Assembly (NCBI GenBank): GCA_025964575.1
Contig: JAOPYO010000471.1
Span: 1-64,000 of the forward strand
Direction of reading: 5' to 3'
DNA: 64,000 nucleotides
DNA from: Actinomycetes bacterium
Lineage (GTDB): Bacteria > Actinomycetota > Actinomycetes > Streptosporangiales > Streptosporangiaceae
In this document: one piece after another, positions 28,365 to 49,671 of the stretch
Layout: every line of letters starts with the position of its first letter
Position numbering within the stretch: position 1 is the first letter of the stretch
Translations under genes and position numbers: made by a program
The notes under the pieces: model-generated
Seen by the model: only the letters and a program-made list of their open reading frames with translations
What the model was told of the DNA's origin: nothing
Databases searched by the model: none

Positions 28365-28725
28365 TGAGCACTTTCCTGAGGAGGAACTGATCGGACTGCT
28401 CGGACGGCACCGCCAGTCGCCGCACCTCGATCAGCCCCTGGGACTGCAGGTCTCCCAGGAGCACCCGGACCACGCCGAGTGCGAGATCCAGTTCCGAGGC
28501 GAGGTCGGCGACGGTGTTCGGTCGCTGGCAGAGTCCCAGCAGCTGTCGCTGCTCGGGTGACAGCCGGACGTGGTCCGGGGGCGTACGTCCTGTAGCGACG
28601 AGGAGTGTGACCAGGTCGAGGCGGTCGCCCAGCGGTTTGGTCCGGCCGCGCGTCATGGCGTACGGCCGGACGATGGGGCCGGCCTCCTCGTCGATCCATC
28701 TCTCTTCCCGGGGATCCATGGTCAT
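28345..28725 (-). CDS. cvnC: Conservon DUF742 protein CvnC (first conservon)
   Basis: A 126-residue DUF742 protein. It has the standard pattern PREERWIDEEAGPIVRPYAMTRGRT near the N-terminus and a winged-helix-like core (LCQRPNTVADLASELDLALGVVRVLLGDLQSQGLIEV). It ends with LLRKVLNDLRAL, the family's usual last residues. The start ATG 28725 overlaps the cvnB stop (ATGA). A longer open frame from 28857 runs through cvnB and is rejected. Its role is thought to be as an adaptor in the CvnA-D complex. Confidence 0.92.
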   Translation of the reverse strand: MTMDPREERWIDEEAGPIVRPYAMTRGRTKPLGDRLDLVTLLVATGRTPPDHVRLSPEQRQLLGLCQRPNTVADLASELDLALGVVRVLLGDLQSQGLIEVRRLAVPSEQSDQFLLRKVLNDLRAL

Positions 28726-29141
28726 CCCGAGCCGGGCGTCGGTTCCGCCGATCTCGGGGCCGCGGTGAGGTGCCTGCGCACGCGCTTGACCAGCAAGGCC
28801 ATCTCGTAGGCGACGAGGCCGGCGTTGGCACCCGCGTCGCTCAGCACGGCCAGGCAACTTCCGGTCCCGGCCGACGTCACGAAGAAGAGCGCGTCCTCCA
28901 TCTCGATGACCGTCTGACGTACCTCGCCGGCCTCGAAGTGCTGGCGGGCACCGTTGGCCAGGCTGTAGAAGCCGGCGGCCAGGGCGGCGAAGTACTCGCT
29001 GTCATCCCTGCTGACGTTGCGGGACGCCGCCATCACCAGGCCGTCGCGCGACAGAACCACGGCCCTGCGCACCTCACCGACCCGGTCGACCAGATCGTCC
29101 AGCAGCCAGCCCAGTTCTCCTGTCACATGAGATTGAGTCAC
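28722..29141 (-). CDS. cvnB: Conservon Roadblock/LC7 protein CvnB (first conservon)
   Basis: A 139-residue Roadblock/LC7-fold protein: ELGWLLDDLVDRVGEVRRAVVLSRDGLVMAAS at the start and SCLAVLSDAGANAGLVAYEMALLVKRV later. Such proteins act with small GTPases, often as GTPase-activating partners (MglB-type). GTG 29141 overlaps the cvnA stop (GTGA), with GGGGG upstream. Paralogous to the protein at 39971. Confidence 0.93.
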   Translation of the reverse strand: MTQSHVTGELGWLLDDLVDRVGEVRRAVVLSRDGLVMAASRNVSRDDSEYFAALAAGFYSLANGARQHFEAGEVRQTVIEMEDALFFVTSAGTGSCLAVLSDAGANAGLVAYEMALLVKRVRRHLTAAPRSAEPTPGSG

Positions 29142-31465
29142 GTGTCACCCCCTTCTTTCCCCTGCTCGAACAGGAATTGATCTTCCTCTTCGTCATCGCG
29201 GCCGCGCAACCAGCCCGTCTGCAGCGAGGCCATGAGGTCACGGGTCTCTTCGGGACGGCGGTCGGCCGTGGAGTCCTCGGGCGCCGACCCGGACTTTTTG
29301 CGCAGTTGCGGGGCCAGATTGGCCTGCCGGATGCGCCGCGGCAATTCGTCCTCGTCGTCCTCGTCGTCCTCCTCGGCGGAGTCGACGACGGCAGAGCCGG
29401 TGATCTGCCTGGGCTCGAACCATCCATGTGAAGCGGACGAGACCGAAATCGGGGTGGAGGCGACCGGCTGCGGGCGCAGGAAGGTGACAGGCTTGCCGAC
29501 CGGCGGCTCCAGGTCCGATTCCTCGTCCTGCATCACCAGCTCATGAGGGATCAGCACCACCGCCGTGGTGCCGCCGTACGCCGACGGCTGCAGAGTCACG
29601 CGGATGCCATGGCGGGCGGCCAACCTGGAGACGACGAACAGCCCGAGCCGGTCGCTGTCGGCCAGATCGAACTCGGGCGGCCGCACCAGCCGCTGGTTGA
29701 GCTCGTCCAGTTCACTGGTATTCAGACCGATGCCACGGTCCACGATCTCCACTGCGAAGCCGTTGGCCACCATCTCGCCGCGGACCTGGACCTCCGTCGG
29801 TGGAGGTGAGAAGGCCGTCGCGTTCTCGATCAGCTCGGCCAGCAGGTGGATGACGTCGGCCACCGCCGCGGCGGCCAGCGAGGCGGGTGACGAGGACATC
29901 ACATCGACCCGGGTGTAGTCCTCCACCTCGCCGAGGGCGCCGCGCAACACGTCCTCGATCTGCACGGGCCTGCTCCATCCTCGGCCGGCGGGAGCACCGG
30001 AAAGGATGACCAGGCCTTCCGCATGACGGCGCATGCGGGTGGTGAGGTGGTCCAGCCGGAAGAGATCCTCGAGTTCCTCGGGCTCGGAGGCGCGACGCTC
30101 CATGGCGTCGAGCATGCGCAACTGCCGGTGCAGGAGGGACTGACTGCGCCAGGCCAGGTTCAGAAAGACCCGGCTGACACCCTTGCGCAGATAGGCCTCT
30201 CCGACGGCGGTGTCGATCGCCGTGCGCTGCACCCGGGTGAAGGCGTCGGCGACTCGGGAGATTTCCGTGGTCTTCCCGACCTGGAGCGGCGGGACCTCCG
30301 CGTCCACGTCCACGTCCTCACCGCGGCGAAGTCGCGCGACGACCCGGGGCAGCCGTTCCTCGGCCAGGTCCTGTGCCGCCCGTTGCAGGCCGCCGAGTTC
30401 CCGGGACAGGTTCCGGGCGAACAGGATCGACAGGATGATGGAGGCCAGCACGGCGATCAGGCCCAGCCCGCCCGCCAGGAACAGTCGGAACAGAATCCGA
30501 TCGCCGATCGGCTGGGCGCGATCCTTGAGGGCCGCGCCCGCCTGGGTGACCGACTGCCCCCATGCCAACGAGAGCGGGGTGATGGTCGCCTGCCACGCCG
30601 CGGCCGGTAGCCGGGTCTTGGTCTTGGCGGCGACGATCCCGTCCTCCATCGCCCGGAGGCGCACGAACTCTGGGGATTCGACCACCCGCTGCACCGAGTC
30701 GCGCAGGGTGCCGCTCAGGTCCGCGAGCCCGGTGTCGAACGTCTGCCGCTGCTGGGCCGACCACTGCACGAAGGCGGTGTGCTCGGGGGTGGTCATCCGA
30801 CCACCGGCCGCCTGCACGGCCGTGACCAGCGCGTCTTCGCGCAGCATGTAGTCCTGTGCCCAGCCGACGGCGACGAGCCCACGGCCTTGCTGAAAGATGT
30901 CGAGATCATCGACGACCCCCGTGCTGCTGAAGAGCCGGATGGCGGCGTCGAACATGTCGCCATAGGCAGCGATCGCATGCACGTCGTCCGTTTGGTTCGA
31001 GTCGATCGAATCGCGGAGGGCGCCCAGTTGGTCGAGCTGCTGGTTGAGGTCGGTCAGACGCTGCTCGATCGTGCTGCCCGCCGCGCCATCGACCTTGGCG
31101 GACGGCGCGGTCTTGCGGAAATATGTCTCCGCCGCGTTCGTTCGTACTCGCTGGCCCTGGAGTTGCTGGCGGCCCTGGCGCCCGTGGGAGCCCACGTAGA
31201 GGGCGGTCAGCGCTCGCTCCTGCTGCAGCTGCGCCGTCAGGGAGGCGCCCGGAATGAAGATCTTGTCGTATGTCGTGGCGATGGCGTTCTTGTTGAGAGC
31301 CGCGCCGAGGGTGGCGCTCGCCGCGAATCCCCAGAGTCCGACGAGGGACAGCAGAGGGATGACGAGCAGTGCCGTGATCCGCATCCGAACGGAGCGCGTT
31401 CTGGGCCGCTTGGGGCCCTTGCCGTCTTCGCTCGCCGAGGCGCGCCGGGTCCACTCGGGAAGCAC
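29138..31465 (-). CDS. cvnA: Conservon sensor-kinase-like protein CvnA (first conservon)
   Basis: A 775-residue membrane protein. It starts at GTG 31465, which has AAGGAG nine bases upstream; the open frame continues to 31666 without a better site. A first membrane helix (about residues 30-53) is followed by a nitrate/nitrite-sensing-like extracytoplasmic domain beginning TAQLQQERALTALYVG. A second helix (about 325-350) leads into a HAMP-like linker. Then comes a histidine-kinase-like segment (HRQLRMLDAMERR; LEDLFRLDHLTTRMRRHAEGLVILSG) and an HATPase domain with N-box HLLAELIENATAFSPP near 540 and DRGIGL. The last 170 residues are acidic and low in complexity, as in other CvnA proteins. Sensor of the first conservon; ligand unknown. 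Confidence 0.93.
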   Translation of the reverse strand: MLPEWTRRASASEDGKGPKRPRTRSVRMRITALLVIPLLSLVGLWGFAASATLGAALNKNAIATTYDKIFIPGASLTAQLQQERALTALYVGSHGRQGRQQLQGQRVRTNAAETYFRKTAPSAKVDGAAGSTIEQRLTDLNQQLDQLGALRDSIDSNQTDDVHAIAAYGDMFDAAIRLFSSTGVVDDLDIFQQGRGLVAVGWAQDYMLREDALVTAVQAAGGRMTTPEHTAFVQWSAQQRQTFDTGLADLSGTLRDSVQRVVESPEFVRLRAMEDGIVAAKTKTRLPAAAWQATITPLSLAWGQSVTQAGAALKDRAQPIGDRILFRLFLAGGLGLIAVLASIILSILFARNLSRELGGLQRAAQDLAEERLPRVVARLRRGEDVDVDAEVPPLQVGKTTEISRVADAFTRVQRTAIDTAVGEAYLRKGVSRVFLNLAWRSQSLLHRQLRMLDAMERRASEPEELEDLFRLDHLTTRMRRHAEGLVILSGAPAGRGWSRPVQIEDVLRGALGEVEDYTRVDVMSSSPASLAAAAVADVIHLLAELIENATAFSPPPTEVQVRGEMVANGFAVEIVDRGIGLNTSELDELNQRLVRPPEFDLADSDRLGLFVVSRLAARHGIRVTLQPSAYGGTTAVVLIPHELVMQDEESDLEPPVGKPVTFLRPQPVASTPISVSSASHGWFEPRQITGSAVVDSAEEDDEDDEDELPRRIRQANLAPQLRKKSGSAPEDSTADRRPEETRDLMASLQTGWLRGRDDEEEDQFLFEQGKEGGDT

Positions 31466-31769
31466 GAGATCTAGCTCCTTGTGATGATCGCAGCGATCAC
31501 GTCGCCGGCCGTCCGACACCGCCCGAGAAATCTGTTCAGTGTCGTCTATACCGTCACACCGACCCCCCAGTGCAGCTATGGTGCCCGTCGTCTCAGCGAG
31601 ATGCAAGAGCCTCTGCATGTTCCGATGCACGTGCATGCCTGCTACGAAGCGGTCATCACCGCCCATGGAGCATGGCCACTTTGCTCTTTCGTTACCTGAA
31701 ACGTGCGGCTCCCGCCGGGTAACCCAGACCCGGTGCCGACGCCCACCGCCTGATGGACGAGGACGGTCT
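31466..31769. other. Intergenic region between the polyprenyl synthase gene and cvnA
   Basis: About 300 bp without a supported gene. Two palindromes are visible: TGATCG-CAG-CGATCA at 31485-31499, only 20 bp from the cvnA start and just upstream of its AAGGAG, and the perfect 12-mer ATGCACGTGCAT at 31625-31636. Either may be a regulator site for an internal cvnA promoter. No clear terminator follows the synthase gene (ends at 31770), so read-through into cvnA is possible. Confidence 0.4.
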
Positions 31770-32828
31770 TCAGCGGGTGCGGTCGACGAGGAAGCGGGAC
31801 AACACCGCCAACTCGTGGGCGGCCGTAGCGTCCAGGTCGGCGGTGTCGAGGATGCGCAGGGCCTGGGAGACGTTCAGATCGGCCTCCGCCTCGGCGAAGG
31901 AACGCCCGCCCGCCTCCGAGATCAGTTCGGCGGCCTGGACCAGGGAATCCTCGTCGTCCAGTGGCCCGGCGAGCAGGACGGCGAGCCGCCGCCCCGCAGG
32001 CGTTCCCGACGCGAGCGCTGCGACCACCGGGAGGGTCTTCTTGGCCTGCCGCAGATCGTTGAAGACGGGCTTGCCGGTGAGGGAGGGGTCGCCCCAGATG
32101 CCGAGCAGATCGTCGACCGCCTGGAAGGCGAGCCCCAGATGACGGCCCATCCGTGCCAGCGCGTCGGCCAGGGCGGGCGGCCCGCCGCCGAGCAGGGTGC
32201 CGACCGCGGCGGCACACCCGAGCAGTGAGCCGGTCTTGCCGACGGCCATGGCGCGATACTCCTCGACGGTGACCGCATGTGGACCGGACCATGGGCGGGT
32301 CTCGAAGGCGACGTCCTCGGCCTGGCCGTGGACCAGTTCGACCAGGGCCTCGGCCAGCCGCTGCACCGCGAGCGCGCTATATCTCTCCGCGGTCTGGGCG
32401 AGGGTGAACATGGCGAGGGCCAGCAATCCATCACCGGCCAGCACGGCCGGCCCGACGCCGTACTGCTTCCACGCCGTCGCGCGGTGACGGCGCTGCTCGT
32501 CGCCGTCCATGATGTCGTCGTGGACCAGGGAGAAGGCGTGCACCAACTCCACCGCGACCGCTCCGCTGACCGCCACCTCCGGGGGCGATCCCACGGACTC
32601 GGCGCACAGCATCGCGAAGGCAGGCCGCAGGGCCTTGCCGCCCTCAGCCTCACGGGGAGTGCCGTCCGCCTCGACCCAGCCGAACGTGAAGGCCGCCATC
32701 CGCCCGGGCCAGGGATGCAATCGGCCGACCGCTTCCCTCAGGGCCGGATCGACCAATCGCCGGCACCGAGCGAGAACTCTGGCCACTTCACCAACGGCCT
32801 CTTGCGGGTCGGAGACGTCCAGCGTCAT
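31770..32828 (-). CDS. Polyprenyl (probably geranylgeranyl) diphosphate synthase
   Basis: A 352-residue all-alpha trans-prenyltransferase that condenses isopentenyl diphosphate with an allylic diphosphate. The first aspartate-rich motif is in FSLVHDDIMDGDEQRRHR (about residues 98-115) and the second in FQAVDDLLGIWGD (about 233). The chain-length region upstream of the first motif (VELVHAFSLVH) is that of common actinobacterial C20/C15 enzymes and does not decide product length by eye. Because a class II cyclase of the diterpene type lies across the divergent region, GGPP is the likely product (inference). It starts at ATG 32828, the first gene of the leftward transcript leading into the first conservon. 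Confidence 0.9.
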   Translation of the reverse strand: MTLDVSDPQEAVGEVARVLARCRRLVDPALREAVGRLHPWPGRMAAFTFGWVEADGTPREAEGGKALRPAFAMLCAESVGSPPEVAVSGAVAVELVHAFSLVHDDIMDGDEQRRHRATAWKQYGVGPAVLAGDGLLALAMFTLAQTAERYSALAVQRLAEALVELVHGQAEDVAFETRPWSGPHAVTVEEYRAMAVGKTGSLLGCAAAVGTLLGGGPPALADALARMGRHLGLAFQAVDDLLGIWGDPSLTGKPVFNDLRQAKKTLPVVAALASGTPAGRRLAVLLAGPLDDEDSLVQAAELISEAGGRSFAEAEADLNVSQALRILDTADLDATAAHELAVLSRFLVDRTR

Positions 32829-33458
32829 GAAAGCTCAGTCCTAGCGGGTATCAGATGCTGAAGATCCTAAGCCGAGGGTTCCCGGAAAAGCGGTAGATCG
32901 AAACCGCAAAACTGTCTTGACCTTCGAGTCATGTCAGTTGTCGGGCCGTTGAGTAACGATTGGTCTCCCTGAAGCGCAGCGCTTATCCCGCCTATCGGTG
33001 GCCTCTGACGGAAAGAAATCAAACCGATACGTAGCGTGATCGACCGGCGTTTCGTCGGCAATTCATGCACCGGTGTCCCCGAGTCTCCTCTGCGGTCCGC
33101 CCGACCACCGAGGCGATGTGGCATCTCGTGGGTACGCCTCCCGCGCAAGCTCCTGATCAGGTGATTCAGATAGAAGCATTCATGTAAAGCGTCTATCCCT
33201 ATCGACTTCGAGTGATCAATATCACTCCCGGTACGTTCCAATCGCAGCGTTCGATGATCTTGCCTGCCCTGGATGGCCATGTAATACTCCGGTTAAGCAT
33301 GAATCGCTACAAAGGTTACAAAAACTCGACAGAAAGCCAACCCACTTCCCGTGCGGCGCCCCGTGCGGGACCGCCCGAATAGCTTGAGCATCGTTATTTG
33401 CTTTCATCCGAGCAATGCCATTCCAGGTGTTGCCGCCCGGAAGTGGGGATGGTTCACA
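32829..33458. promoter_or_regulatory. 630-bp divergent control region of the terpene/conservon locus
   Basis: No supported gene. The base composition is clearly more AT-rich than the flanks. It must hold the promoters for both arms of the locus. A hyphenated palindrome, GAGTGAT-CAAT-ATCACTC, lies at 33210-33227. A weak rightward promoter candidate, TTGCCT (33260-33265) with AATACT (33283-33288) 17 bp later, sits about 170 bp ahead of the P450 start. Its length is unusual for so compact a genome. Confidence 0.5.
33210..33227. promoter_or_regulatory. Hyphenated palindrome GAGTGAT-N4-ATCACTC, candidate operator
   Basis: Seven-base arms match perfectly around CAAT. It is located between the divergent starts at 32828 and 33459 and about 33 bp upstream of a possible -35 for the P450 arm. 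Suitable for a dimeric regulator controlling both arms; the regulator is not identified. Confidence 0.45.
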
Positions 33459-34823
33459 ATGACGATTGATATTGCTGTTGGTAAGGCGAAGATGGCGAGG
33501 AAATTCCCACTCCGCCGCACTCTCCCAGCACTCATACGAGATCCGGTCAAGGCGATCCAGGAGATCGGGAGGGAGTCGAACGGGGAGATCGCGCGAGTGA
33601 ATCTCGGGCTGTTCCGGCCGTACCTGGTGACCCGCCCTGAGCATGTCCAGCATGTCCTGCGCGACAACGCCGTGAACTACCCGCGTGAGGGCATGATGTG
33701 GAAGCCGCTCACCCGTCTGGTCGGTCAGATCGCGGGTGAGGGCCCGGAATGGGCGCTCAACCGGGGCATCTTCCAAGCCCTGCTGTCGGGACCGAACATC
33801 GCGTCGGTCACGGAGGAGATGGCGGCGACGATCTCCGAAGCCGTGGACCAACTGGGTCATCGTGTCGCCCCAGGCGAGCCGGTCGACGCCGTCCTCGAGA
33901 TGACCCGGATCGTGCAGCGCGCCATCATCCGTGTCTTCTTCGGCAACAAGATCTCGATAGCCGAGGCGGATCATCTGGCTGACGCGATCCGAACCGCGAC
34001 CACGTCATTTGGATCCCGGATGCTGCTGCCGTTCGTGCCGCACTCCGTTCCGCTCCCGGGGGACCGTGCGTTCCAGCGTGCCGTCGAGGCCGTGGACGAG
34101 GTCATGATGCCGCTGGTCCGTGAGTCGCGTCGTGAAGCGGCGGACGGCAAGGACATCGTGTCGATGTTGCTCCGGGCACGTGATGAGAACGGCAAGGGGC
34201 TCGACGACCAGCAGGTTCGAGACGGCGTCGTCGCGATGTTCGTGGCCGGTACCGAAACGACCGCGACCGCGCTGACCTGGCTGCACGTAGTGCTCGACGC
34301 CCGTCCGGACATAGCGGCCAAGCTTTATGAGGAGATCGACCGCGTGATCGGGACGGATCAGCCGGGGCGCGCGCATCTGCCCGAGCTGCGTTACACCAAG
34401 ATGGTCATCCAGGAGCTACTGCGGGTGTACTCCATCGGCTGGATCATTCCGCGGACCGCGGTGGCGGACGACGTCATCGACGGTGTCCTGATCAAGGGTG
34501 GCGCCACCGTTCTCATCAGCCCCTATCTCACCCATCGGCTGGACTCGGTATGGAAGGATCCGCAGGTCTTCGACCCGGAACGATTCTCCCCGGATCGAGT
34601 GGGTTCGAGGCATCGATTCTCGTATCTGGCCTTCGGTGCCGGTGCCCACCAGTGCGTGGGGACTCTCTTCTTCACCATCGAGGCGCAACTCGTTCTGGCC
34701 ACCCTGCTCAGCCGATTCCGGCCCGTACTCCAGGCCACGTCGCCGATCGAGCCGCAGGTGCGGCTCACGCTGACGCCCCGCCAGCGAGTCAAGATCGTGC
34801 TTCAGCCGCTCGGGCAACGGTAA
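33459..34823 (+). CDS. Cytochrome P450 of the terpene locus
   Basis: A 454-residue P450 monooxygenase, soluble as usual in bacteria. The oxygen-binding I-helix is VAMFVAGTETTATAL (about residue 260), the ExxR motif is QELLRVYSIGW, and the heme-ligand loop is FGAGAHQCVGTLFF with Cys near 394. The start is taken as ATG 33459, preceded by GGGGAT; the N-terminus MTIDIAVGKAKM then reads into FPLRRTLPALIRDPVKAIQ. No ferredoxin or reductase gene is in the locus, so electrons would come from general partners. It lies eight bases ahead of a terpene synthase gene and is likely to oxidise its product. P450 genes are also frequent conservon companions (CvnE), so the two roles may coincide here. Confidence 0.93.
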   Translation: MTIDIAVGKAKMARKFPLRRTLPALIRDPVKAIQEIGRESNGEIARVNLGLFRPYLVTRPEHVQHVLRDNAVNYPREGMMWKPLTRLVGQIAGEGPEWALNRGIFQALLSGPNIASVTEEMAATISEAVDQLGHRVAPGEPVDAVLEMTRIVQRAIIRVFFGNKISIAEADHLADAIRTATTSFGSRMLLPFVPHSVPLPGDRAFQRAVEAVDEVMMPLVRESRREAADGKDIVSMLLRARDENGKGLDDQQVRDGVVAMFVAGTETTATALTWLHVVLDARPDIAAKLYEEIDRVIGTDQPGRAHLPELRYTKMVIQELLRVYSIGWIIPRTAVADDVIDGVLIKGGATVLISPYLTHRLDSVWKDPQVFDPERFSPDRVGSRHRFSYLAFGAGAHQCVGTLFFTIEAQLVLATLLSRFRPVLQATSPIEPQVRLTLTPRQRVKIVLQPLGQR

Positions 34824-34831
34824 CGGGCGCC

Positions 34832-35737
34832 ATGTACTCATCCATCAAGGCGGTCAACGAGCTGTCGGCGGCCGCCGAGCAGGGCAGGATCTGCGCGCTG
34901 TCTGCGGATTGTCACAGGTATCTGCAGGAATGCCCCGATGCCTACCCGGGTCTCTTCCCTGAGAGTCCGTTCGATCCCAGGCTCTTCAGCGCCGTCGCGC
35001 TGGCCAACGCATTCGGCTCCCCATGGGCCACGGCGGACCAGCTACGGATCGCGACCCGTACCTCTCTCTGGGTCTTCGCCGCGGACTGGGTGGTGGACTA
35101 CGTCGCGAAGTCGCGGGACGAGGTCCACGACGTCATGACGGCGTGTCTGGCCATCGCGGACGGCAGAGCACCTGCCGTGAGTACGCCGCTCACCGATTTT
35201 CTCGCCGACATCCGTGATGAGCTGGCCACCGCTCCCACGTTTGCGGCATTCCACCCGAACTGGCGCGACCAACTCGAGCGCTATCTGGCAGCCATGGCGC
35301 GTGAGTGGGACTGGAAGTCGGCTCGGGCCGCAGGTGATGAGACGAAGCTGCCGACGTTCGAGGAGTATCTGGGCAACGCCGACAACTTCGGGTCCTCCTG
35401 GGTCAATGTCTCGCACTGGATATTCACCTGCGACCCGCACACGCTCGACCAACTCGACGAACTCTGGCTGGTCAGCGAAGAAGTGCAGAAGGTGCTGCGC
35501 CTGCTCAACGATCTGGCCACTCACGAGCGGGACCTGAGCTGGGGGGACCTCAACGGACTGATGCTCGGCGTCGACCGGGCAGGCGTGAACGAACGGATCG
35601 CCGTGCTCGTCGACGGCTGCCAGGAACTGCTCCAGCCCCTGCGGGAGAGTCACCCACGAGAGGTCGTCTACCTGGAGCGGCAGATCGGCTACAGCACCGG
35701 TTTCTACGGGAACACGGATTACTGGGGTGCTCTGTGA
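34832..35737 (+). CDS. Class I terpene synthase
   Basis: A 301-residue class I (ionising) terpene synthase. The aspartate-rich metal motif is degenerate: WVFAADWVVDYVAKSRDE, giving D85-x-x-x-D89 instead of DDxxD. The second metal site is LLNDLATHERD, N226-D227-x-x-T230-x-x-x-D234, matching NDxxS/TxxxE with Asp for Glu. The length is that of single-domain bacterial enzymes. The start at ATG 34832 follows the P450 stop by eight bases, and the end overlaps the class II gene (GTGA). Pairing with a class II cyclase suggests that its substrate is a bicyclic diphosphate made by the next gene, rather than linear GGPP. Sequence identity is too low for me to name a product. Confidence 0.82.
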   Translation: MYSSIKAVNELSAAAEQGRICALSADCHRYLQECPDAYPGLFPESPFDPRLFSAVALANAFGSPWATADQLRIATRTSLWVFAADWVVDYVAKSRDEVHDVMTACLAIADGRAPAVSTPLTDFLADIRDELATAPTFAAFHPNWRDQLERYLAAMAREWDWKSARAAGDETKLPTFEEYLGNADNFGSSWVNVSHWIFTCDPHTLDQLDELWLVSEEVQKVLRLLNDLATHERDLSWGDLNGLMLGVDRAGVNERIAVLVDGCQELLQPLRESHPREVVYLERQIGYSTGFYGNTDYWGAL

Positions 35738-37302
35738 CCGTCGACGACCGGACGGCGGTCATCTTGGATACGACGGCAGCGGCCCAGGAGTTGATCGCCG
35801 GGCTCATATCCGAGCCCTGGGGTCAGGTCTCCCCCTCGGTGTACGAGACCGGACGCCTGGTGACCCTGACTCCATGGCTGACCGGACATGTCCAGCGGAT
35901 CGAGTTCCTGCTGGCGAGCCAGCGGCCAGACGGCGGTTGGGGCGCTCCGCAGATCGGCTACGCGCTGGTGCCGACGCTGAGCGCGACCGAGGGGATCCTC
36001 GCCGCCCTGCGCCGTCACGGTCCGGACCCGAGGCTGAGGTCGGCGGCGGACCGGGGACTGCGCCTCCTCTTCCGCTGGCTGAACGGCGGCGCCGAGCTCA
36101 CCTTTCCCGATATGCCAGCAGTAGAGCTGATATCGCCGTACCTCATCGCTCTGATCAACGAGCACCTCGACTCCATGCCCGGCGAGTGGCAGGAGGGTGA
36201 ACGCCTGAAGCCTTCGGCCGACATGGACGGTGCCGTCCTCACGCTGATCCGGGAACGCCTGGTGGCGGGCGCCGACCTGCCGGAGAAGCTCCTGCACGCC
36301 CTGGAGATCGTGGGAGATGCGGCACGCGGCCTCCGTACGATCCGTACGGAACCAACGGGGACCATCGGCGCCTCTCCCGCGGCCACCGCGGCCTGGCTCG
36401 GCGACAGGGAACCATCCGACCCCAGCAATCCGGCGCGCTGGCACCTCGAGACGGTCGTCGCCCGGCACGGCGGGCCGGTGCCCTGCGGCCTCCCCATCAC
36501 CGTGTTCGAACGGGCCTGGGTCCTGAGCGGGCTGATTCGCGCGGGCATCCCCGTCTCCGTTCCCCCGGAGCTGGTGCTGAGCCTGACGACCCAGCTCGGT
36601 CCGCTCGGAGCATCTGCGGCCGCCGGACTGCCGGCGGATGCCGACACCACGTCCGGCGCACTGTACGCCCTCGCCCTTCTCGGTGCCCCACACCCGCCGG
36701 ACCTGCTGTGGGCGTATGAGACGGAGACCCATTTCTGTACGTGGCCCGGGGAACAGGGCCTGTCGGTCAGCACCAACGCGCACGTGCTCGAGGCCTTCGG
36801 TGAATACTCATCCCTCCGCCCCGACAGCGCCGCACGCTATACGGCGACCATCGCCAAGGTGTCGGCGTGGTTGTGCGATCGGCAGCTCGCCGATGGAAGC
36901 TGGCAGGACAGGTGGCACGTCTCCCCCTACTACGCGACGGCCTCCAGTGCGCTCGCGCTGGATCGCCACGGCGGTCCGGAGTCCGCGGAGGCCGTGCGCA
37001 GTGCCCTGCGGTGGCTCCTTGCCACCCAGCGTGCGGACGGTTCCTGGGGTCTGTGGGAAGGCACCGCCGAGGAGACCGCGTACGCCCTTCAGGTCCTGCT
37101 GCTCACCCGGCCCGCATCGAGCCCGGCGTACGAAGAGGCGGTGGCACGTGGCCACGCCTCTCTGCTGCGATCCGCCGATCGGACGGATCAACCGGCTCTC
37201 TGGCACGACAAGGATCTCTACCTGCCCACCGCGATCGTTCGCGGGACCGTCCTGGCCGCGCTCCATCTGGCGCAGCGTCCGATCGTCGGTTCTGGCCGGT
37301 AA
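35734..37302 (+). CDS. Class II diterpene cyclase (protonation-type), DxDTT variant
   Basis: A 522-residue enzyme of the squalene-hopene/copalyl diphosphate synthase fold (beta-gamma domains). QW-type repeats are seen at QRPDGGWGAPQ (about 63), QLADGSWQDRW and QRADGSWGLWEGTAEETAYALQVL (C-terminal third). The acid motif is LPADADTTSGALYAL: D302-A-D304-T-T. The middle Asp that protonates the substrate is kept, while the last Asp of DxDD is Thr. A DxDTT form is known, to my recollection, in the halimadienyl/tuberculosinyl diphosphate synthase Rv3377c. Length, about 500 residues, fits bacterial class II diterpene cyclases rather than 630-residue hopene cyclases. Likely substrate GGPP from the enzyme at 31770. 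Its GTG start overlaps the class I stop. Confidence 0.85.
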   Translation: MTVDDRTAVILDTTAAAQELIAGLISEPWGQVSPSVYETGRLVTLTPWLTGHVQRIEFLLASQRPDGGWGAPQIGYALVPTLSATEGILAALRRHGPDPRLRSAADRGLRLLFRWLNGGAELTFPDMPAVELISPYLIALINEHLDSMPGEWQEGERLKPSADMDGAVLTLIRERLVAGADLPEKLLHALEIVGDAARGLRTIRTEPTGTIGASPAATAAWLGDREPSDPSNPARWHLETVVARHGGPVPCGLPITVFERAWVLSGLIRAGIPVSVPPELVLSLTTQLGPLGASAAAGLPADADTTSGALYALALLGAPHPPDLLWAYETETHFCTWPGEQGLSVSTNAHVLEAFGEYSSLRPDSAARYTATIAKVSAWLCDRQLADGSWQDRWHVSPYYATASSALALDRHGGPESAEAVRSALRWLLATQRADGSWGLWEGTAEETAYALQVLLLTRPASSPAYEEAVARGHASLLRSADRTDQPALWHDKDLYLPTAIVRGTVLAALHLAQRPIVGSGR

Positions 37303-37334
37303 ATCCGGTAGATATCAATAGAAATGTCACAAAA

Positions 37335-37349
37335 CGGACTAATTGTCCG
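37335..37349. promoter_or_regulatory. Hyphenated palindrome CGGAC-TAATT-GTCCG
   Basis: Perfect 5-bp arms around TAATT, 32 bp after the class II cyclase stop and 16 bp before the -35 of the predicted cvnA promoter. It could be a weak terminator of the terpene genes or an operator for the second conservon. Confidence 0.35.
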
Positions 37350-37365
37350 GTGTAGATGATTCACC

Positions 37366-37394
37366 TTGAGTGGCTATGCCCGTGTTGCTAAGGT
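37366..37394 (+). promoter_or_regulatory. Predicted promoter of the second conservon
   Basis: TTGAGT (37366-37371), a 17-bp spacer, then TAAGGT (37389-37394), matching TTGACA-like and TAnnnT. The region is AT-rich. Transcription would begin near 37401, giving a leader of about 120 nt before ATG 37521. Confidence 0.5.
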
Positions 37395-37520
37395 TCTCCC
37401 GAGCGTGGAACAGTGGCGATCTATTGCCGTTCCTCGTGCCAGACCATCAGGTACTTCGCAACCCTTAATTCACCTTCGGACAGGTTGCGAGTCTCACTAC
37501 ATATTGTTGGGTCGGTTGTA

Positions 37521-39941
37521 ATGCGCTTCCGCAACGCCCGTCTGCGGACGAAGATCACCGCTCTGCTCCTGTCGCTTGCTGCACTGTGGGCGTTCGCTGC
37601 ATGGGTGACGCTACGGGAGGGCCTGAACCTGGTCTGGCTGAGCACGCTCGACGCCAAGACCGGTCGGCCGGGCAACACCTTGGTCACCAACCTGCAGCAG
37701 GAACGCCGGCTTTCACTGATCAGTTTGAGCACACCGACTCCTCAGCGGCGGGCGGCGCTGGATGCGCAGAGGGGGCGCACTGATGAGGCCAAGGCCAACT
37801 TCCTGAAGCTGGCCGGCAGCTCCGAGGTATCGATGGCGGCAGGCGCGGCCGAGATGAAGCGCATCAAGGAGACGTTCAAGCAACTGGACGGCCTCGCCTC
37901 GGGCCGCGCACAGGTCGATGCACGGCGGGTGGATCGCACCGTCGCCGCGACTCCGTTCAACGACATCATCGACTCCGTCTTCCGGATCTACGGCTCGAGC
38001 GCGAGCGTGGACAACCAGGACATCGCCAAGGACAGTCGTACCCTGATCGCCCTGACCCGGGCCAAGGAGATCCTCTCGAGGGAGGACGCCCTGCTCGCGA
38101 GTGTACTGGCGGCGGGCCGGTTCACCAGTGGTGAGCATGCCCAGTTCGTCGAACTCGCGGGTGCCCAGCGACTCCTCCACGCCGAGGCGGTGGCCGAGTT
38201 GCCCGACGCCGATCGCGCCCGTTACGAACAGTTGGTCAGCGGCGCGGACTTCACCCGCTTCCACGCCATGGAAGACCGCATGATCCAGTTCCAGGAGAAG
38301 CGGGCGAAGGTCACCCCGCCCCTGCCCGTTGGCGCCCAGGAGTGGGAGTCCGTGATGGGCCCGGTCCTGACCGGTCTGGAGAAGGTGGTTCTGACGGGCG
38401 GTGACGGAGTGGTGGAGCGGGCCAAGCCGGTCGCCATCGGTGTCATCCTCCGCGTGGTGCTGGCCGCCGGCCTCGGTCTCATCGCCGTCGTCTCCTCGGT
38501 CGTCTTGTCCATCACCACGGCCCGGGCCCTCGTGCAGCAGCTGGAGAAACTGCGGGTCGCCGCCTGGGAGCTCGCCGAGAAACGGCTGCCCAGTGTGGTC
38601 GAGCGCCTCGGGCACGGTGAAGAGGTGGACGTGGCCGCCGAGGCGCCGTCGCTGTCCTTCGGCTCAGACGCCATCGGCCAGGTGGGGCGTGCGTTCAACG
38701 CGGTCCAGGAGACCGCCATCCGGACTGCGGTCGAGCAGGCCGAACTGCGGCGCGGCATCCGCGACATCCTCCTGAGCCTGGCCCGCCGCTCCCAGGCGTT
38801 GGTCCACCGGCAGCTCACCCTGCTCGACACCATGGAGCGGCGGGAGATCGAGACCCAGGAGCTCGAGGACCTCTTCCGGGTCGACCACCTGGCCACCCGC
38901 ATGCGGCGCAACGCGGAGAATCTCATCGTCCTGTCCGGGTCGACCCCGGCCCGTGGCTGGCGCCGCTCGGTCGCGATGGTCGACGTGGTCCGCGCGGCAG
39001 TGGCCGAGATCGAGGACTACACCCGGGTCACCGTCATGCCGATCGGCCCCGTCGCACTGAACGGACGGGCCGTCGGTGACATCACCCACCTGCTGGCCGA
39101 GCTGATCGAGAACGCGGTCTCGTTCTCGCCCCCGTACACCGTGGTCCAGATCAGCGGTCACATGGCCGCAGGCGGCTACGCCATCGAGGTCGAGGACCGC
39201 GGTCTGGGCATGACCGACGAGAACCTGGCCGGCATCAACGAGCGGATCGCCGACCCACCCGAGTTCAACCTGTCGAGTTCCGTGCAGCTTGGCCTGTACG
39301 TGGTCGGGCGGCTGGCCGAGCGGTACGGCGTCCGGGTGTCGCTCAAGCGCTCCCCCTACGGCGGTACGACAGCGGTGGTTCTGGTCCCACGCGAGCTGGT
39401 GATCGAGGACGAGAACGCCGCCGACTACGCCGCGCCGATGCCGGTCGCCGTTGGCGTCGCGGACGAGGCCGCGCGGTCCCAGCCCCAGGCCGTACGCACT
39501 CTGTCACCGGAGCCGGCGGGTCCATCCGCGTTCACCGTCATCTCTGAGCAAGGCACCCCGGCTCCGGTCAACGGCGCGGGATCCCCATCAATATCCAGGT
39601 CGGAGGAAGGCGTGGAGCCGGAGACCCCGCCCGTGCCGGAGATGTCGCACACCCCATCGGGTTTGCCGTTCCGGGTACCTCAGGCGAGCCTGGCCCCACC
39701 GTTGCGTACCGACGGACCCACGTCGGCCGTGGCGGAGGAGGGCGAGGAGAACGTCGACCCCGGGCGATCGCCCGAAGAGATCCGAAAGATGGTCGGAGCC
39801 TTCCAGAAGGGCACCCAACGCGGCAGGAACGCCGCCGAGGGAGCGCTCGGCCGGGACGACGACCCCCCGCAGCCACCCCCTGCTTCTCTCGGGCCCTCTG
39901 ATCGGGGGCCCACACCCGACCTCGCAGATCCAGCCGGCTGA
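37521..39941 (+). CDS. cvnA: Conservon sensor-kinase-like protein CvnA (second conservon)
   Basis: An 806-residue paralogue of the protein at 29138. An N-terminal helix (KITALLLSLAALWAFAAWVTL) comes before an extracytoplasmic nitrate/nitrite-sensing-like domain (VTNLQQERRLSLISL). The second helix lies at about 308-332 (VVLAAGLGLIAVVSSVVLS), then a HAMP-like part and kinase-like segment (VHRQLTLLDTMERREIETQELEDLFRVDHLATRMRRNAENLIVLSG). The ATPase N-box is HLLAELIENAVSFSPP near 523, with EDRGLGM. A proline-rich acidic tail of more than 150 residues follows. ATG 37521 is the best match to the family N-terminus but its ribosome site is poor; the frame is open back to 37413. Confidence 0.92.
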   Translation: MRFRNARLRTKITALLLSLAALWAFAAWVTLREGLNLVWLSTLDAKTGRPGNTLVTNLQQERRLSLISLSTPTPQRRAALDAQRGRTDEAKANFLKLAGSSEVSMAAGAAEMKRIKETFKQLDGLASGRAQVDARRVDRTVAATPFNDIIDSVFRIYGSSASVDNQDIAKDSRTLIALTRAKEILSREDALLASVLAAGRFTSGEHAQFVELAGAQRLLHAEAVAELPDADRARYEQLVSGADFTRFHAMEDRMIQFQEKRAKVTPPLPVGAQEWESVMGPVLTGLEKVVLTGGDGVVERAKPVAIGVILRVVLAAGLGLIAVVSSVVLSITTARALVQQLEKLRVAAWELAEKRLPSVVERLGHGEEVDVAAEAPSLSFGSDAIGQVGRAFNAVQETAIRTAVEQAELRRGIRDILLSLARRSQALVHRQLTLLDTMERREIETQELEDLFRVDHLATRMRRNAENLIVLSGSTPARGWRRSVAMVDVVRAAVAEIEDYTRVTVMPIGPVALNGRAVGDITHLLAELIENAVSFSPPYTVVQISGHMAAGGYAIEVEDRGLGMTDENLAGINERIADPPEFNLSSSVQLGLYVVGRLAERYGVRVSLKRSPYGGTTAVVLVPRELVIEDENAADYAAPMPVAVGVADEAARSQPQAVRTLSPEPAGPSAFTVISEQGTPAPVNGAGSPSISRSEEGVEPETPPVPEMSHTPSGLPFRVPQASLAPPLRTDGPTSAVAEEGEENVDPGRSPEEIRKMVGAFQKGTQRGRNAAEGALGRDDDPPQPPPASLGPSDRGPTPDLADPAG

Positions 39942-39970
39942 AGCTGAAAAGGATAGAAAAGGGACAACGA

Positions 39971-40381
39971 GTGGTGCAGAAGACAGGTCCATCCGTCGAC
40001 CTGGCCTGGTTGCTGGACGACCTGGTCGGGCGGGTAAACGAAGCACAGCACGCGGTCGTCCTCTCGGCGGACGGACTGCTCATGGCCGCCTCCCACGACA
40101 TCAGCCAGGACGACGCCGAACACCTGTCCGCCGTAGCGGCCGGGATACAGAGCCTCGCCAGGGGTGCCGGTGAGCGCTTCGGCGGTGGCACCGTACGCCA
40201 GAGCATCATCGAGATGCAGTCGGCATTCCTGCTGGTGACCGTCGCCGGTAAGGGTGCCTGCCTGGCGGTGCTGACCGCCGACGACGCGGATGTCGGCCTG
40301 GTCGCCTACGAGATGGCCATGCTGGTCACTCAGGTCGGTCACCATCTCAGCTCCCCGCAGCGGACGGCCGGGTCGGTATGA
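39971..40381 (+). CDS. cvnB: Conservon Roadblock/LC7 protein CvnB (second conservon)
   Basis: A 136-residue Roadblock/LC7 protein: LAWLLDDLVGRVNEAQHAVVLSADGLLMAASHDI and CLAVLTADDADVGLVAYEMAMLVTQVG. It starts at GTG 39971, with AAAAGGGA eight bases upstream; a second GTG follows directly. Overlaps cvnC by four bases. Partner of the CvnD GTPase encoded at 40733. Confidence 0.93.
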   Translation: MVQKTGPSVDLAWLLDDLVGRVNEAQHAVVLSADGLLMAASHDISQDDAEHLSAVAAGIQSLARGAGERFGGGTVRQSIIEMQSAFLLVTVAGKGACLAVLTADDADVGLVAYEMAMLVTQVGHHLSSPQRTAGSV

Positions 40382-40752
40382 CGTCGTCCGACGAACGGTG
40401 GCTCGACGAGCAAGCGGGGCCGGTCGTGCGGCCCTACGTCGTCACGAGCGGCCGCATGCAGCCGATTCGCGGTGACTTCGACCTCATCTCCCTTGTCGTG
40501 GCGACCGGCCCGGCACCCACAGGCGAGATCGGTCTCGGTCCCGAGCACATCGCCATCATCCGGCTCTGCCAGAACCTGATGTCGGTGGCGGAGATCACCG
40601 GATATCTGGACCTGCCGGCCGGCACCGTCCGAGTCCTGCTCGGCGACCTGCTTGACAGAGGATTCGTCATGGTGCAAGAACCCGAACCTGAGTTCGACAT
40701 GCAGGACCACAGGCTCTATGAGGCGGTGATCAATGGACTACGGGCGCTCTAG
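40378..40752 (+). CDS. cvnC: Conservon DUF742 protein CvnC (second conservon)
   Basis: A 124-residue DUF742 protein with SSDERWLDEQAGPVVRPYVVTSGRM, a winged-helix-like core (LCQNLMSVAEITGYLDLPAGTVRVLLGDLLDRGFVMV) and the ending YEAVINGLRAL. It starts at ATG 40378 in the cvnB stop and overlaps cvnD by 20 bases, exactly the same overlap length as in the first conservon. Confidence 0.92.
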   Translation: MTSSDERWLDEQAGPVVRPYVVTSGRMQPIRGDFDLISLVVATGPAPTGEIGLGPEHIAIIRLCQNLMSVAEITGYLDLPAGTVRVLLGDLLDRGFVMVQEPEPEFDMQDHRLYEAVINGLRAL

Positions 40753-41353
40753 GCGCGAGGTCGAACGCCGCAAGCTGCCGACCGCCATCAAGATCTTGAT
40801 TGCGGGTGGCTTCGGCGCCGGCAAGACCACCATGGTGGGTGCGGTCTCCGAGACCCGACCGCTTCGGACCGAGGAGATCATCACCGATCAGAGCACAGGT
40901 GTCGACGACCTGTCCGGCGTGGAGACGAAGAAGACGACCACGGTGGCGATGGACTTCGGCCGGATCACCATCCGGGACGAGTTCATGCTCTACCTGTTCG
41001 GTACCCCCGGGCAGGAACGGTTCTGGTTCATGTGGGATGAGGTGGCCATCGGCGCGCTCGGTGCGGTTGTGCTGGCCGACACCCGGAGGCTGGCCGACTG
41101 CTTTCCCTCGGTGGACTACTTCGAACGGCGGGGCACACCGTTCATCGTCGCGGTGAACTGCTTCGAGAACGCTCCGAAGTACGACCTCGCCGAGGTCGAG
41201 CTGGCGCTGAACCTGGGCCCGCACGTCCCGGTGATGCTCTGTGACGTGCGGCAACGGGAGTCGTGCAAGGACGTTCTGATCAGCTTGGTCCAGCACGCGA
41301 TGAAATCGCGCGGCGTCCGCGCGAAACCGGCGGTGGAGACGTCTGCGCCATAG
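40733..41353 (+). CDS. cvnD: Conservon GTPase CvnD (second conservon)
   Basis: A 206-residue small GTPase. G1 is GGFGAGKTTMVGA, the switch region is TEEIITDQSTGVDDLSGVETKKTTTVAMDFGRI, G3 is LFGTPGQERFWFMW, and the base-recognition region is VAVNCFENAPKYDL. It is closely similar to the first copy at 27723 but lacks that copy's extended tail. It ends the rightward transcript; convergent glnH ends 88 bp further on, with no strong hairpin between them. Confidence 0.93.
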   Translation: MDYGRSRREVERRKLPTAIKILIAGGFGAGKTTMVGAVSETRPLRTEEIITDQSTGVDDLSGVETKKTTTVAMDFGRITIRDEFMLYLFGTPGQERFWFMWDEVAIGALGAVVLADTRRLADCFPSVDYFERRGTPFIVAVNCFENAPKYDLAEVELALNLGPHVPVMLCDVRQRESCKDVLISLVQHAMKSRGVRAKPAVETSAP

Positions 41354-41441
41354 GCCGTGCCGAACTGCCGTGCCGAACCCCGGGTCGCGGTGCCGCGGTG
41401 CAGCGGTGCAGGAATCACTCGCTCCCGCTGGAGATCGTGGT

Positions 41442-42254
41442 TCAGCCGCAGCCTTCGAACTGGGGGACGGTGGTGGTGACCTTGAGACCGGACGGGCCGA
41501 ACCATTTGTCGAGAAGGGTCTTGGCGGTGCCGTCCAGAAACAGGTCGGTGACGGCCTTGTTGATCTCCTCGCAGCCCTTCAGATCACCTTGCTTGATGCC
41601 GATGCCGTACTTCTCATCCGAGATCGGCGCGTTGACGAGCTTGACGGCCTGACCCTTCTGGGCGGCGAACCCGGCCAGGATCAGGTCGTCCGTGGAGACG
41701 GCGTCCACGGTGCCGGAGATGAGGTCACCGACACATGCGCTGTACGACGCGGCCGGGACCAGACCGGCCGCGATCTTCTTCTCCTCGGTGACGCGTTTCC
41801 AGGAGTTTGAGCCGGCCACCTGACAGAGCTTCCGGCTCTTGAGGTCGTGCACGTTCTTGATCGTGGTGTCGCTCCCGCGTACCAGGGTGTCCTGGTGGGC
41901 GACATAGTACGGCCCCCCAAAGATGACCTTGGTCTTGCGCTCCGGCGTGATCGAGTAGGTGGCGAACACCAGATCGACCGTGCCCTGTTGCAGGAACGTC
42001 TCTCGCTGGGCCGACGTGATCGCCTTGAAGGTGACGTTCTTCGCTCCGAGCTTCTTGGCGACGTACTTCGCGACATCCACGTCGAAGCCCTCGAACGTGC
42101 CGTCGGACTTCTTCAGCCCCAGCCCCGGCTGGTCCGCTTTGACGCCGATCACCAACGTGTCCTTGGCGGCGATCGACGACGATCCACCACCGACCCCACA
42201 GGCGGTCAGGGACAGGGCCAGCACCATCGCGGACGCCCAGCGTGCTCGCATCAT
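41442..42254 (-). CDS. glnH: GlnH-like amino acid-binding lipoprotein (PknG pathway sensor)
   Basis: A 270-residue lipoprotein. ATG 42254 (or the next ATG, 42251) has GAGGGA upstream. The signal peptide reads RARWASAMVLALSLTAC with lipobox LTAC. The mature part is a polar amino acid-binding fold (SBP family 3): DTLVIGVKADQPGLGLKKSDGTFEGFDVDVAKYVAKKLG, VDLVFATYSITPERK, and YGIGIKQGDLKGCEEINKAV. In M. tuberculosis GlnH binds aspartate/glutamate outside the cell and signals through GlnX to PknG. Here the gene lies immediately after a GlnX-like gene and in line with a PknG-like gene, with no transporter permease or ATPase genes, which favours sensing over import. Confidence 0.88.
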   Translation of the reverse strand: MMRARWASAMVLALSLTACGVGGGSSSIAAKDTLVIGVKADQPGLGLKKSDGTFEGFDVDVAKYVAKKLGAKNVTFKAITSAQRETFLQQGTVDLVFATYSITPERKTKVIFGGPYYVAHQDTLVRGSDTTIKNVHDLKSRKLCQVAGSNSWKRVTEEKKIAAGLVPAASYSACVGDLISGTVDAVSTDDLILAGFAAQKGQAVKLVNAPISDEKYGIGIKQGDLKGCEEINKAVTDLFLDGTAKTLLDKWFGPSGLKVTTTVPQFEGCG

Positions 42255-42262
42255 TCGCTCCC

Positions 42263-43750
42263 TCAACGGAATTCCGACAGGCGCGGACGGACCCCAACCA
42301 GGACGAGCGCGGCGATGACGACGGCCGCGCCCGGCAGCAGCCAGTTCCACCCGTTCAGCGCACCGTCACCGTCACGGATGGCCGCGTCGAAGGTGTTCCG
42401 GTGAATGCCGATGAGGGAGACGAGTGCCCGGTCGTAGTCATCGAAGTCATGGATGGAGGAGCCCGCGGTGCGCCCCATCCGGACCTCGATCGCGTCGCGC
42501 GGTTTGCTGGAACCGACCAGCTGCCGCAGTCGGCGATCGTCCTGCTGGAACTTCTGGTAGGTCGTGAGCAGTGTGCTGACGGCCCCTCCCTGGCGATCGA
42601 CGGTGATGTGCCGCGCCTCTTCCCCATAGAAGCCCAGGAAGGGCACCTTGTAGGAGCCCGCGTTGTAGGTGGTCAGGCCCGCGTCCACCCCGGTGTAGTA
42701 CTTGTCGAGGTTGCCGGCCGGGACGTAGAGGATCGATTGGGACTTGTCGAGGTACACCTGTTCGTAGGTGTCGGCCCGGCCGGGATCGAGCAGATAACGG
42801 CTCTCGTCGGCGTTGAGGCTGTTGCTGATCGCCCGTGCCCGGGACAGCGCGAGGATCGAGTCGAACCCGTCCTTCTTGGCCTTCTGCAGGTGGCTCGCTT
42901 CCGCGGAGAGTAGCCCGACGCTCACCACGATGAGCACCAGGGTGCCCAGCGTGGCCAGTGCCAGTGCCGGGTTGATCAACCGCCGGAACCGTCGGCTGAG
43001 GAACATCTGCAGGCTCAGCAGCGCCACGATCACGAGCAGGCCGGTGCTGACCACCCACACCCGGCCGTCCTGCACCGAGGAGTGTTTCGACTCGTAGGTG
43101 CGCCGCACGATCGTCCCGCTGTCGAGAGTCAGGTTGTACGCCTTCGGCAGCAGATCCAGTTTCATCAGATCCGTCGCCTGGCGGTGCAGATCGATGACCT
43201 GCTGCGGGGGCGGTCCGGCGGCATGGCCGGCCTGGCCGTCGAGCAGTAGGGCCTGGGAGGCGAGCCGCTCGTACTGACCCAGCCCGTCGAGCACGGCCTG
43301 CACCGTACGCTGCCCGGCCGGGTCCTTTCCGGCCAGGTCGGAGGCTTGCAGCACGGCCTTGTCGGCTTGCGCGCGGCGCTGCTGGTAGACGTTCAGCGCC
43401 TGGGCCCGGCCGACGCCCAGATCCTGTTCCTTACCGATCAGCAGTACGTTGGCCAACTGGGCGTCCATGTCGCTGAGTGCGAAGTACAGGTCGCCGGTGG
43501 CGACCACCTGCGGGCCCGCGCCGTGCCCGATGACCTGCAGGCCGTCGCGCGCGTCACCGACGACCGAGCTGGTGACCGCGAACAGTGCCGCGACGGCGAG
43601 CACGGCGGCCAGCGCCGCCGCGCGGATGCGCCCCGGCATGGTCCGCAGCCGCAGCGGACCGGCCAGCCTTCTCAGCGTGGAGTCCGGTATCTGGAGAGTG
43701 CTTCCCGGGGTCGTTGCCGGGTGCGATGAACGAGCCGTCGACATGGTCAT
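42263..43750 (-). CDS. glnX: GlnX-like membrane signalling protein
   Basis: A 495-residue protein. It starts at ATG 43750, overlapping the FHA gene stop (ATGA). Four membrane helices are seen: about residues 37-60 (AAALAAVLAVAALFAVTSSVV), two close together near 230-285 (VWVVSTGLLVIVALLSLQMFL; LALATLGTLVLIVVSVGLL), and one at the C-terminus (WLLPGAAVVIAALVLVGV). This leaves two large extracytoplasmic helical domains, each like a four-helix sensor bundle (GDARDGLQVIGHGAGPQVVA; EASHLQKAKKDGFDSILALSRAR). The topology and gene neighbours match GlnX of M. tuberculosis, which links GlnH to PknG. No kinase domain is present. Its stop lies eight bases before the glnH start. Confidence 0.82.
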   Translation of the reverse strand: MTMSTARSSHPATTPGSTLQIPDSTLRRLAGPLRLRTMPGRIRAAALAAVLAVAALFAVTSSVVGDARDGLQVIGHGAGPQVVATGDLYFALSDMDAQLANVLLIGKEQDLGVGRAQALNVYQQRRAQADKAVLQASDLAGKDPAGQRTVQAVLDGLGQYERLASQALLLDGQAGHAAGPPPQQVIDLHRQATDLMKLDLLPKAYNLTLDSGTIVRRTYESKHSSVQDGRVWVVSTGLLVIVALLSLQMFLSRRFRRLINPALALATLGTLVLIVVSVGLLSAEASHLQKAKKDGFDSILALSRARAISNSLNADESRYLLDPGRADTYEQVYLDKSQSILYVPAGNLDKYYTGVDAGLTTYNAGSYKVPFLGFYGEEARHITVDRQGGAVSTLLTTYQKFQQDDRRLRQLVGSSKPRDAIEVRMGRTAGSSIHDFDDYDRALVSLIGIHRNTFDAAIRDGDGALNGWNWLLPGAAVVIAALVLVGVRPRLSEFR

Positions 43751-44547
43751 GGCAGTCTCCGCACCGTGATGGTGGTCCAGGCGCCGACGTGGATCCGATC
43801 GCCGTCCTGCAACGGGAGTTCGGTGTTGACGGCGATGGGATCGGTCTCCTCGTTGACGGTGGTGCCGTTGGTGGAGCCCGGGTCGACCAGTGTCCAGCCG
43901 CCGTCGGGCCGCGCGAGCAGCACCGCGTGGGTGTGGGAGACGCCTGGATCCTCCGGCGGCCCGCTCAGGTCGATCTCTGGCACCGTGCCCTGGGACACGC
44001 TGCGCCGTCCGATGCGGATCTGCTGCCCCGTCAGCGGCACCCGCCGCTCCGGGCAGTACGGGGGGAAGGTGAGGGCGGTCACGTCGGGGCCGTCCTGAGC
44101 GCGTACCGCGTCGTAGTAGGCCCGGTCGGCGCTGACCACGGCGGTCCACCCCCCAACCCCACTCCCAGTCTCGGTCGCCGCTCCCGTCCCGGTTCCGGTT
44201 CCCGTCCCGGCGGAGGTCTCCGCAGAAGCCCCACCCACTCCGTGATCAGGCGATCGTTCGTCGATCGATTGCGTGATCACGGCGGGAGTGGGGGACGGAC
44301 GAGACGGGATGCCGCCGCCGGTGGAGAAGTCGTAGCCGCACTCCTCGCAGAAACGGCCGCTGCGGGGTGTGGCGCAGTCCGGGCAGGGTTCATCGCCCTC
44401 GCCGCCGATGGCGGGTGGGGGGACCTGGGGGGCCGACCCCGCGTCCGGTCCAGGCCGCGCCGGCGCCGGTGCCCCGGCCATGCGAATACCACAGACGTCG
44501 CAGTATTCGTCGTCGGCAGAGGAGTGCCCTGCGGGACAGGTCGCCAT
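43747..44547 (-). CDS. FHA-domain protein with two N-terminal zinc-ribbon motifs
   Basis: A 266-residue soluble protein. Two cysteine pairs at each end of the N-terminal region (C-P-A-G-H then YCDVCG; CPDCATPRSGRFCEECG) look like short zinc ribbons (residues 4-20 and 55-71). A Gly/Thr-rich linker (TGTGTGTG) follows. The C-terminal 100 residues form an FHA phosphothreonine-binding domain: QIRIGRRSVSQG, DPGVSHTHAVLL and LVDPGSTNGTTVN carry the conserved Gly-Arg, Ser-His and Asn residues. It may be the functional counterpart of GarA, the FHA substrate of PknG (inference). The same zinc-ribbon style occurs in the PP2C and kinase proteins of the cassette. Confidence 0.88.
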   Translation of the reverse strand: MATCPAGHSSADDEYCDVCGIRMAGAPAPARPGPDAGSAPQVPPPAIGGEGDEPCPDCATPRSGRFCEECGYDFSTGGGIPSRPSPTPAVITQSIDERSPDHGVGGASAETSAGTGTGTGTGAATETGSGVGGWTAVVSADRAYYDAVRAQDGPDVTALTFPPYCPERRVPLTGQQIRIGRRSVSQGTVPEIDLSGPPEDPGVSHTHAVLLARPDGGWTLVDPGSTNGTTVNEETDPIAVNTELPLQDGDRIHVGAWTTITVRRLP

Positions 44548-44549
44548 GC

Positions 44550-49503: not shown

Positions 49504-49671
49504 GAGCTCGCTCCGCTCGCCGGCTCGGGCGCTGTGAGGCAGCGCCTTCCCTCGTCGCTCAGGAGCTCGTTCCTCACTCCTTCGCTCCTCAGTCCAGGCA
49601 CCGCCGCGCCCTCGCGACTCCGCGCGCTCCTCAGTCCAGCCCACGTCGGCGCTCCTCCGGCTCGCTCATGG
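49504..49671. repeat. Intergenic repeat element, copy 1
   Basis: Between the aminotransferase stop and the kinase start. On the minus strand it begins TGAGCGAGCCGGAGGAGCGC and contains CTGGACTGAGGAGCG twice, about 45 bp apart. A related element lies at 53255-53346. Low-complexity GAGCG-rich DNA with no gene; possibly a dispersed repeat of this lineage. Confidence 0.5.

Follow-up and report, generated by a model that had tools for sequence, protein, structure and literature searches.

The closest described counterparts of the operon analysed here are two enzyme pairs, SaCPS/SaDTS (terp1, Salinispora arenicola) and Sat1645/Sat1646, which differ from each other in a few residues (PMC9814573). 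SaCPS makes normal copalyl diphosphate (CPP), and SaDTS makes isopimara-8,15-diene (PMC9814573). In the Mg2+-bound structure of Sat1646, Mg A and Mg C are held by both Asp residues of EDWQVD, a motif that the authors of that study term canonical (PMC9814573). In the mechanism proposed for this enzyme, Tyr183, activated by Tyr288, removes the C-9 proton; the Y183F substitution abolishes the 8,15-diene and leads to isopimara-8(14),15-diene (PMC9814573). When fed syn-CPP, Sat1646 produces a new 6/6/7 skeleton (PMC9814573). In E. coli, the class II homologues of that study proved insoluble (PMC9814573). For class II cyclases, Gly485 in Tpn2 versus Asp in PtmT2 (D502) sets the outcome between clerodane and labdane, and Rv3377c has Ala at this position (PMC9814783).

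These systems share different sets of features with the window, by which we mean the whole stretch of 64,000 nucleotides of actinomycete DNA that was analysed. Both SaCPS/SaDTS and Sat1645/Sat1646 have the same gene order (P450, class I, class II), DADTT and DWxxD motifs and a downstream conservon; the window enzymes are 50% identical to them for class I and 52% for class II. In contrast to the Salinispora SaCPS/SaDTS locus, a divergent GGPP synthase gene adjoins the operon in the window. PtmT2, an ent-CPP synthase (5BP8), shares with the window class II enzyme the beta-gamma fold (TM 0.90), the switch Asp, the activating His, a Trp and the metal-binding DxxxxE, whereas it has DxDD instead of DxDTT and Lys where the window has Arg393, with 46% identity in the structural alignment. 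Stt4548, an isopimara-8,15-diene synthase (7E4M), resembles the window class I enzyme in fold and reaction type but has a canonical DDCAD, other active-site residues and only 26% identity. Rv3377c, a halimadienyl diphosphate synthase (6VPT), has DxDTT and the class II fold in common with the window, yet it is 24% identical (structural alignment), and its known partner Rv3378c, unlike its counterpart in the window pair, is not a class I terpene synthase.

Operon layout and family motifs

The operon opens with a cytochrome P450 gene (33459-34823, + strand; PF00067, 5.4e-70), followed after 8 nt by the class I diterpene synthase gene (34832-35737, +; 301 aa). The latter overlaps by 4 nt (GTGA, stop/start) with the gene for a class II diterpene cyclase of CPP-synthase type (35734-37302, +; 522 aa). 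The P450 is 42% identical to that of the Salinispora locus and 71-74% identical to those of two Actinomadura loci (L008 and L009). Divergent from the operon lies a polyprenyl diphosphate synthase gene of GGPP type (31770-32828, −; PF00348, 9.6e-54), a homologue of which, likewise divergent, is also found at several Streptosporangiaceae loci. The enzyme scores 295 bits against the NCBIfam IdsB GGPPS model, under the cut-off of that model; it is presumably C20-specific and would thus supply the pair with its C20 substrate. The top-scoring model for this protein is a family 2 encapsulin cargo (401 bits, below the cut-off of 450), and the idea of an encapsulin cargo was dropped.

Upstream of the P450 gene, a TGATCATGTGATACT element is kept in Streptosporangiaceae loci, with 14-15 of 15 positions retained in ten of them. 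The window copy, aligned by eye with that of the same-genus locus L032, agrees at 12 of 15 positions. It lies within a promoter-like site, TTGCCT-N16-TAATAC with TGGCCATGTAATACT (33260-33288, +), that may act as a promoter/operator.

Pfam assignments, predicted folds and homologues concur with the original prediction that a class II and a class I diterpene synthase form a pair here. Both genes, their coordinates and all motif positions proved correct: D85-W-V-V-D89 (within FAADWVVDYV) and N226-DLATHER-D234 in the class I enzyme, D302-A-D304-T-T in the class II enzyme. The class I protein (PF19086/PF03936) has a confident predicted structure (pLDDT 93) whose top PDB match is Sat1646 (TM 0.90, 50% identity; E=1.5e-89 in the sequence search), and, like Sat1646, it has the class I alpha fold and carries both (E/x)DWxxD and NDxx(S/T)xxxD. 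The class II model (PF13243/PF13249; pLDDT 87) has a beta-gamma double alpha-barrel fold, with PtmT2 as its top PDB match and a TM of 0.84 to Tpn2. A squalene-hopene cyclase was rejected as an interpretation: the Pfam SQHop match reflects the common fold, and the structural matches are diterpene cyclases.

The motifs had been regarded as non-canonical, and the pairing as a possible route to a new skeleton. Neither the motifs nor their pairing proves new, since a DxDTT class II enzyme is already paired with a DWxxD class I enzyme in Salinispora SaCPS/SaDTS, whose product is known. For this comparison the SaCPS locus was read from a genome (G215) recognised by a class I enzyme 98% identical to Sat1646; the class II protein beside it carries LPPDADTT. 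The full DxDD is likewise absent from the window enzyme, and the Salinispora homologue indicates that DxDD does not define this class II branch. When 93 class I and 87 class II homologues were aligned, D85 was present in 93/93, D89 in 92/93 and W86 in 90/93 class I sequences. All 87 class II sequences keep D302 and the general acid D304 (the middle Asp of DxDD/DxDTT), and 86/87 keep T305. A genome scan returned 32 loci, with DADTT in all class II genes read far enough and DWxxD in the class I genes, except for DAxxD in two Nonomuraea. Judged from these sequences, DADTT and DWxxD are the rule in a large actinomycete family and are not what sets the window pair apart, which removes a false lead. 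Degeneration of the motifs in a pseudogene is ruled out by the open frame and the family-wide conservation of metal and acid residues.

Proposed pathway and its product

For the window operon, the analysis itself establishes gene content, motifs, folds, conservation and linkage; substrate, product, P450 role and regulation we infer as follows, and we consider it quite likely that the pair converts GGPP to CPP and then to a pimarane-type diterpene. D304 of DADTT would protonate GGPP and trigger its cyclisation to bicyclic copalyl (labdadienyl) diphosphate. Quenching of the cation on the side of Asp492, at the position of PtmT2 D502, would forestall a halimane or clerodane rearrangement. In the class I enzyme, D85/D89 and NDLATHERD would bind Mg2+, by analogy with Sat1646, and ionise CPP, and closure of the third ring would give an (iso)pimarenyl cation. 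F186, in place of the catalytic Tyr, would then steer proton loss towards the 8(14),15-diene and away from the 8,15-diene, and the P450 would oxidise the olefin. The operon and its divergent GGPP synthase would thus make an oxidised pimarane-type diterpene. Counting against this pathway is an identity of only 50-52% between the window pair and the known pair. Exclusive use of farnesyl diphosphate, named at the outset as a refutation, is disfavoured by the adjoining GGPP-type synthase gene and by relatives that use GGPP/CPP.

The class II step is informed by the Asp/Gly switch known from Tpn2/PtmT2. The switch residue in the window is Asp492 (LWHDKDLY), and of the 66 homologues covering this position, 64 likewise have Asp. 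Also retained are the activating His (H350), the metal-site residues D126/E131 and Y496; the position of Tpn2 Lys383 is Arg in 87/87 class II homologues. By analogy, Asp492 and the retained active-site residues favour a labdane-type (CPP) product over a halimane or clerodane one. This prediction is for CPP without regard to enantiomer.

The window class I enzyme keeps the sensor Arg of helix H (R223), the linker Asn (N185) and the equivalent of Tyr288 (Y292). However, the catalytic Tyr used for the 8,15-diene is replaced, with F186 at the position of Tyr183. Read against the Sat1646 Y183F result, this substitution predicts the 8(14),15-diene, and a product of pimara-8(14),15-diene type is, by this analogy, a good possibility, short of likely. 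The prediction turns on one residue and is testable by a single GC-MS experiment. In the class I family alignment, this effector position is occupied by Phe in 35 sequences, Leu in 32 and Tyr in 22. In the tree, Tyr belongs to Sat1646 and other Micromonosporaceae. Most Micromonospora have Leu, as does one clade from the window's family, and the clade that contains the window has Phe.

The main competing view is a variant of the same pathway with the other isomer as its end point. Under this view, the window pair makes the Salinispora product, isopimara-8,15-diene, and F186 has no effect owing to other changes in the pocket. Motifs and operon order are indeed common to the whole family, and an isopimara-8,15-diene has been reported from Micromonospora, yet the examined enzymes of this genus mostly carry Leu, which suggests that Tyr may be dispensable for the 8,15-diene. 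Against this stands the loss of the 8,15-diene in Sat1646 Y183F, and we regard the Salinispora product as rather unlikely for the window.

A new diterpene skeleton, as first proposed for this pair, now appears improbable, and the evidence points to the known pimarane skeleton, possibly with another double-bond position. In its favour, the search found no characterised pair of known product above 60% identity, the level named at the outset as telling against novelty. In addition, most relatives share with the window a second pocket change, from T85 in Sat1646 to F82, so that the difference in product may go beyond the double bond; together with the change at Tyr183, it alters the pocket relative to Sat1646, which itself forms a new skeleton from syn-CPP. 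However, the motifs are common to a pimarane-making pair, and in the literature covered, diterpenes from genera that carry the operon are pimarane-type where the skeleton is stated.

Scarcely plausible is a class II enzyme that makes halimadienyl or clerodienyl diphosphate, in the style of M. tuberculosis or terpentecin, for a halimane or clerodane class I product: the DxDTT shared with Rv3377c had prompted the comparison, but both sequence and fold place the enzyme nearest to a CPP synthase (PtmT2, E=1.3e-122 and 413 bits, against 100 bits for the far more distant Rv3377c), and its switch residue is Asp, as opposed to Gly in Tpn2 and the non-basic Ala in Rv3377c. We therefore rejected the halimadienyl reading on similarity scores and Asp492, and the clerodane reading on Asp492. 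As a separate observation, two Micromonospora loci (L028, M. inaquosa; L031, M. parva) have Gly at the class II switch (LWYGKELY) and Ser at the effector position of their class I partners, and are candidates for a clerodane-making branch.

Distribution and pimaranes of related genera

Class I homologues occur in 207 of 343 genomes of the window's family (180/285 among those of good quality) and in 180 of 355 genomes, a few weak matches included, of the family to which Micromonospora sp. ATCC 39149 belongs. In an even sample at class level, 20 of 395 genomes matched the class II enzyme at E<=1e-30, and 18 of these belong to the window's family, which was recognised by coordinates shared with named Actinomadura and Microbispora loci. 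Among the genomes listed with homologues, 15 come from the genus group of Microbispora sp. H13382.

As context, pimaranes are reported from several of these genera. Microbispora hainanensis is reported to make 2alpha-hydroxy-8(14),15-pimaradien-17,18-dioic acid (PMC7338456), Micromonospora isopimara-2-one-3-ol-8,15-diene (PMC4584356), Verrucosispora gifhornensis the gifhornenolones (PMC10301674), and Actinomadura the pimarane-type C19 norditerpenes JBIR-65 and actinomadurol (PMC10780140). In the literature covered, none of these compounds has a gene-cluster assignment. The examined Microbispora class I enzymes carry Phe, consistent with the 8(14),15-diene; this match was found once the prediction had been formed and is not a blind test. 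The widespread operon may well be where several orphan pimarane diterpenoids come from. Tentatively, and with some doubt, we propose in addition that the residue found at the Y183 position, which is Tyr, Phe or Leu depending on the clade, acts as a natural double-bond switch and that the conservon-wired operon is the unrecognised source of the Microbispora, Micromonospora and Actinomadura pimaranes. If this is true, the switch would operate across an enzyme family that is represented in over half of the genomes searched from the window's family and in half of those searched from the Micromonospora family.

Between the window (27723-44149) and L032, most flanking genes are 72-89% identical, whereas identity is 45% for the P450, 50% for class I, 65% for class II and 60% for the downstream CvnA. 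In trees, the window P450 groups with Actinomadura and the class II enzyme stands apart from Actinomadura (AU p=5e-33 and 0.009); a grouping of the class I enzyme with L032 is rejected (AU p=2e-8). A diverged operon in conserved flanks, together with discordant trees, suggests that parts of the operon were exchanged in place.

Conservon linkage and neighbouring genes

Downstream of the class II gene, four genes on the + strand follow directly in the order of a conservon, a type of GTPase signalling operon. They encode a CvnA-like sensor kinase-like protein (37413-39941; NIT and HATPase, PF08376 and PF02518), a CvnB-like roadblock protein (39905-40378; PF03259, 2.6e-26), a CvnC-like DUF742 protein (40372-40749; PF05331, 1.3e-33) and a CvnD-like small GTPase (40733-41353; PF03029, 4.2e-31); the start codons of the first three are not fixed. 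A CvnA homologue lies on the same strand downstream of class II in 35 of the 36 loci with enough downstream sequence, Salinispora included, mostly within 230 bp. Conservons can control specialised metabolism; Cvn8, for example, acts as a repressor of the lanthipeptide cluster beside it (PMC8510531, PMC13343842). The downstream conservon probably controls expression of the operon, and this recurrent link could offer a handle for switching on such silent clusters. A literature search found no earlier link between conservons and diterpene operons, which is weak evidence as subscription journals were mostly outside its coverage.

Other features of the window were noted in passing. Beyond the GGPP synthase gene lies another complete conservon (CvnD, C, B, A; 27723-31666, −), so that the diterpene genes are flanked by two conservons. 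Further upstream is a type II Wadjet defence system (JetA2-B2-C2-D2; 16426-24540, −), complete by PADLOC models. The region at 41442-49644 (−) encodes a solute-binding protein, a 628-aa ORF that has no Pfam match, VWA and PP2C proteins and a PknG kinase, and resembles a PknG-GlnX-GlnH signalling cluster.
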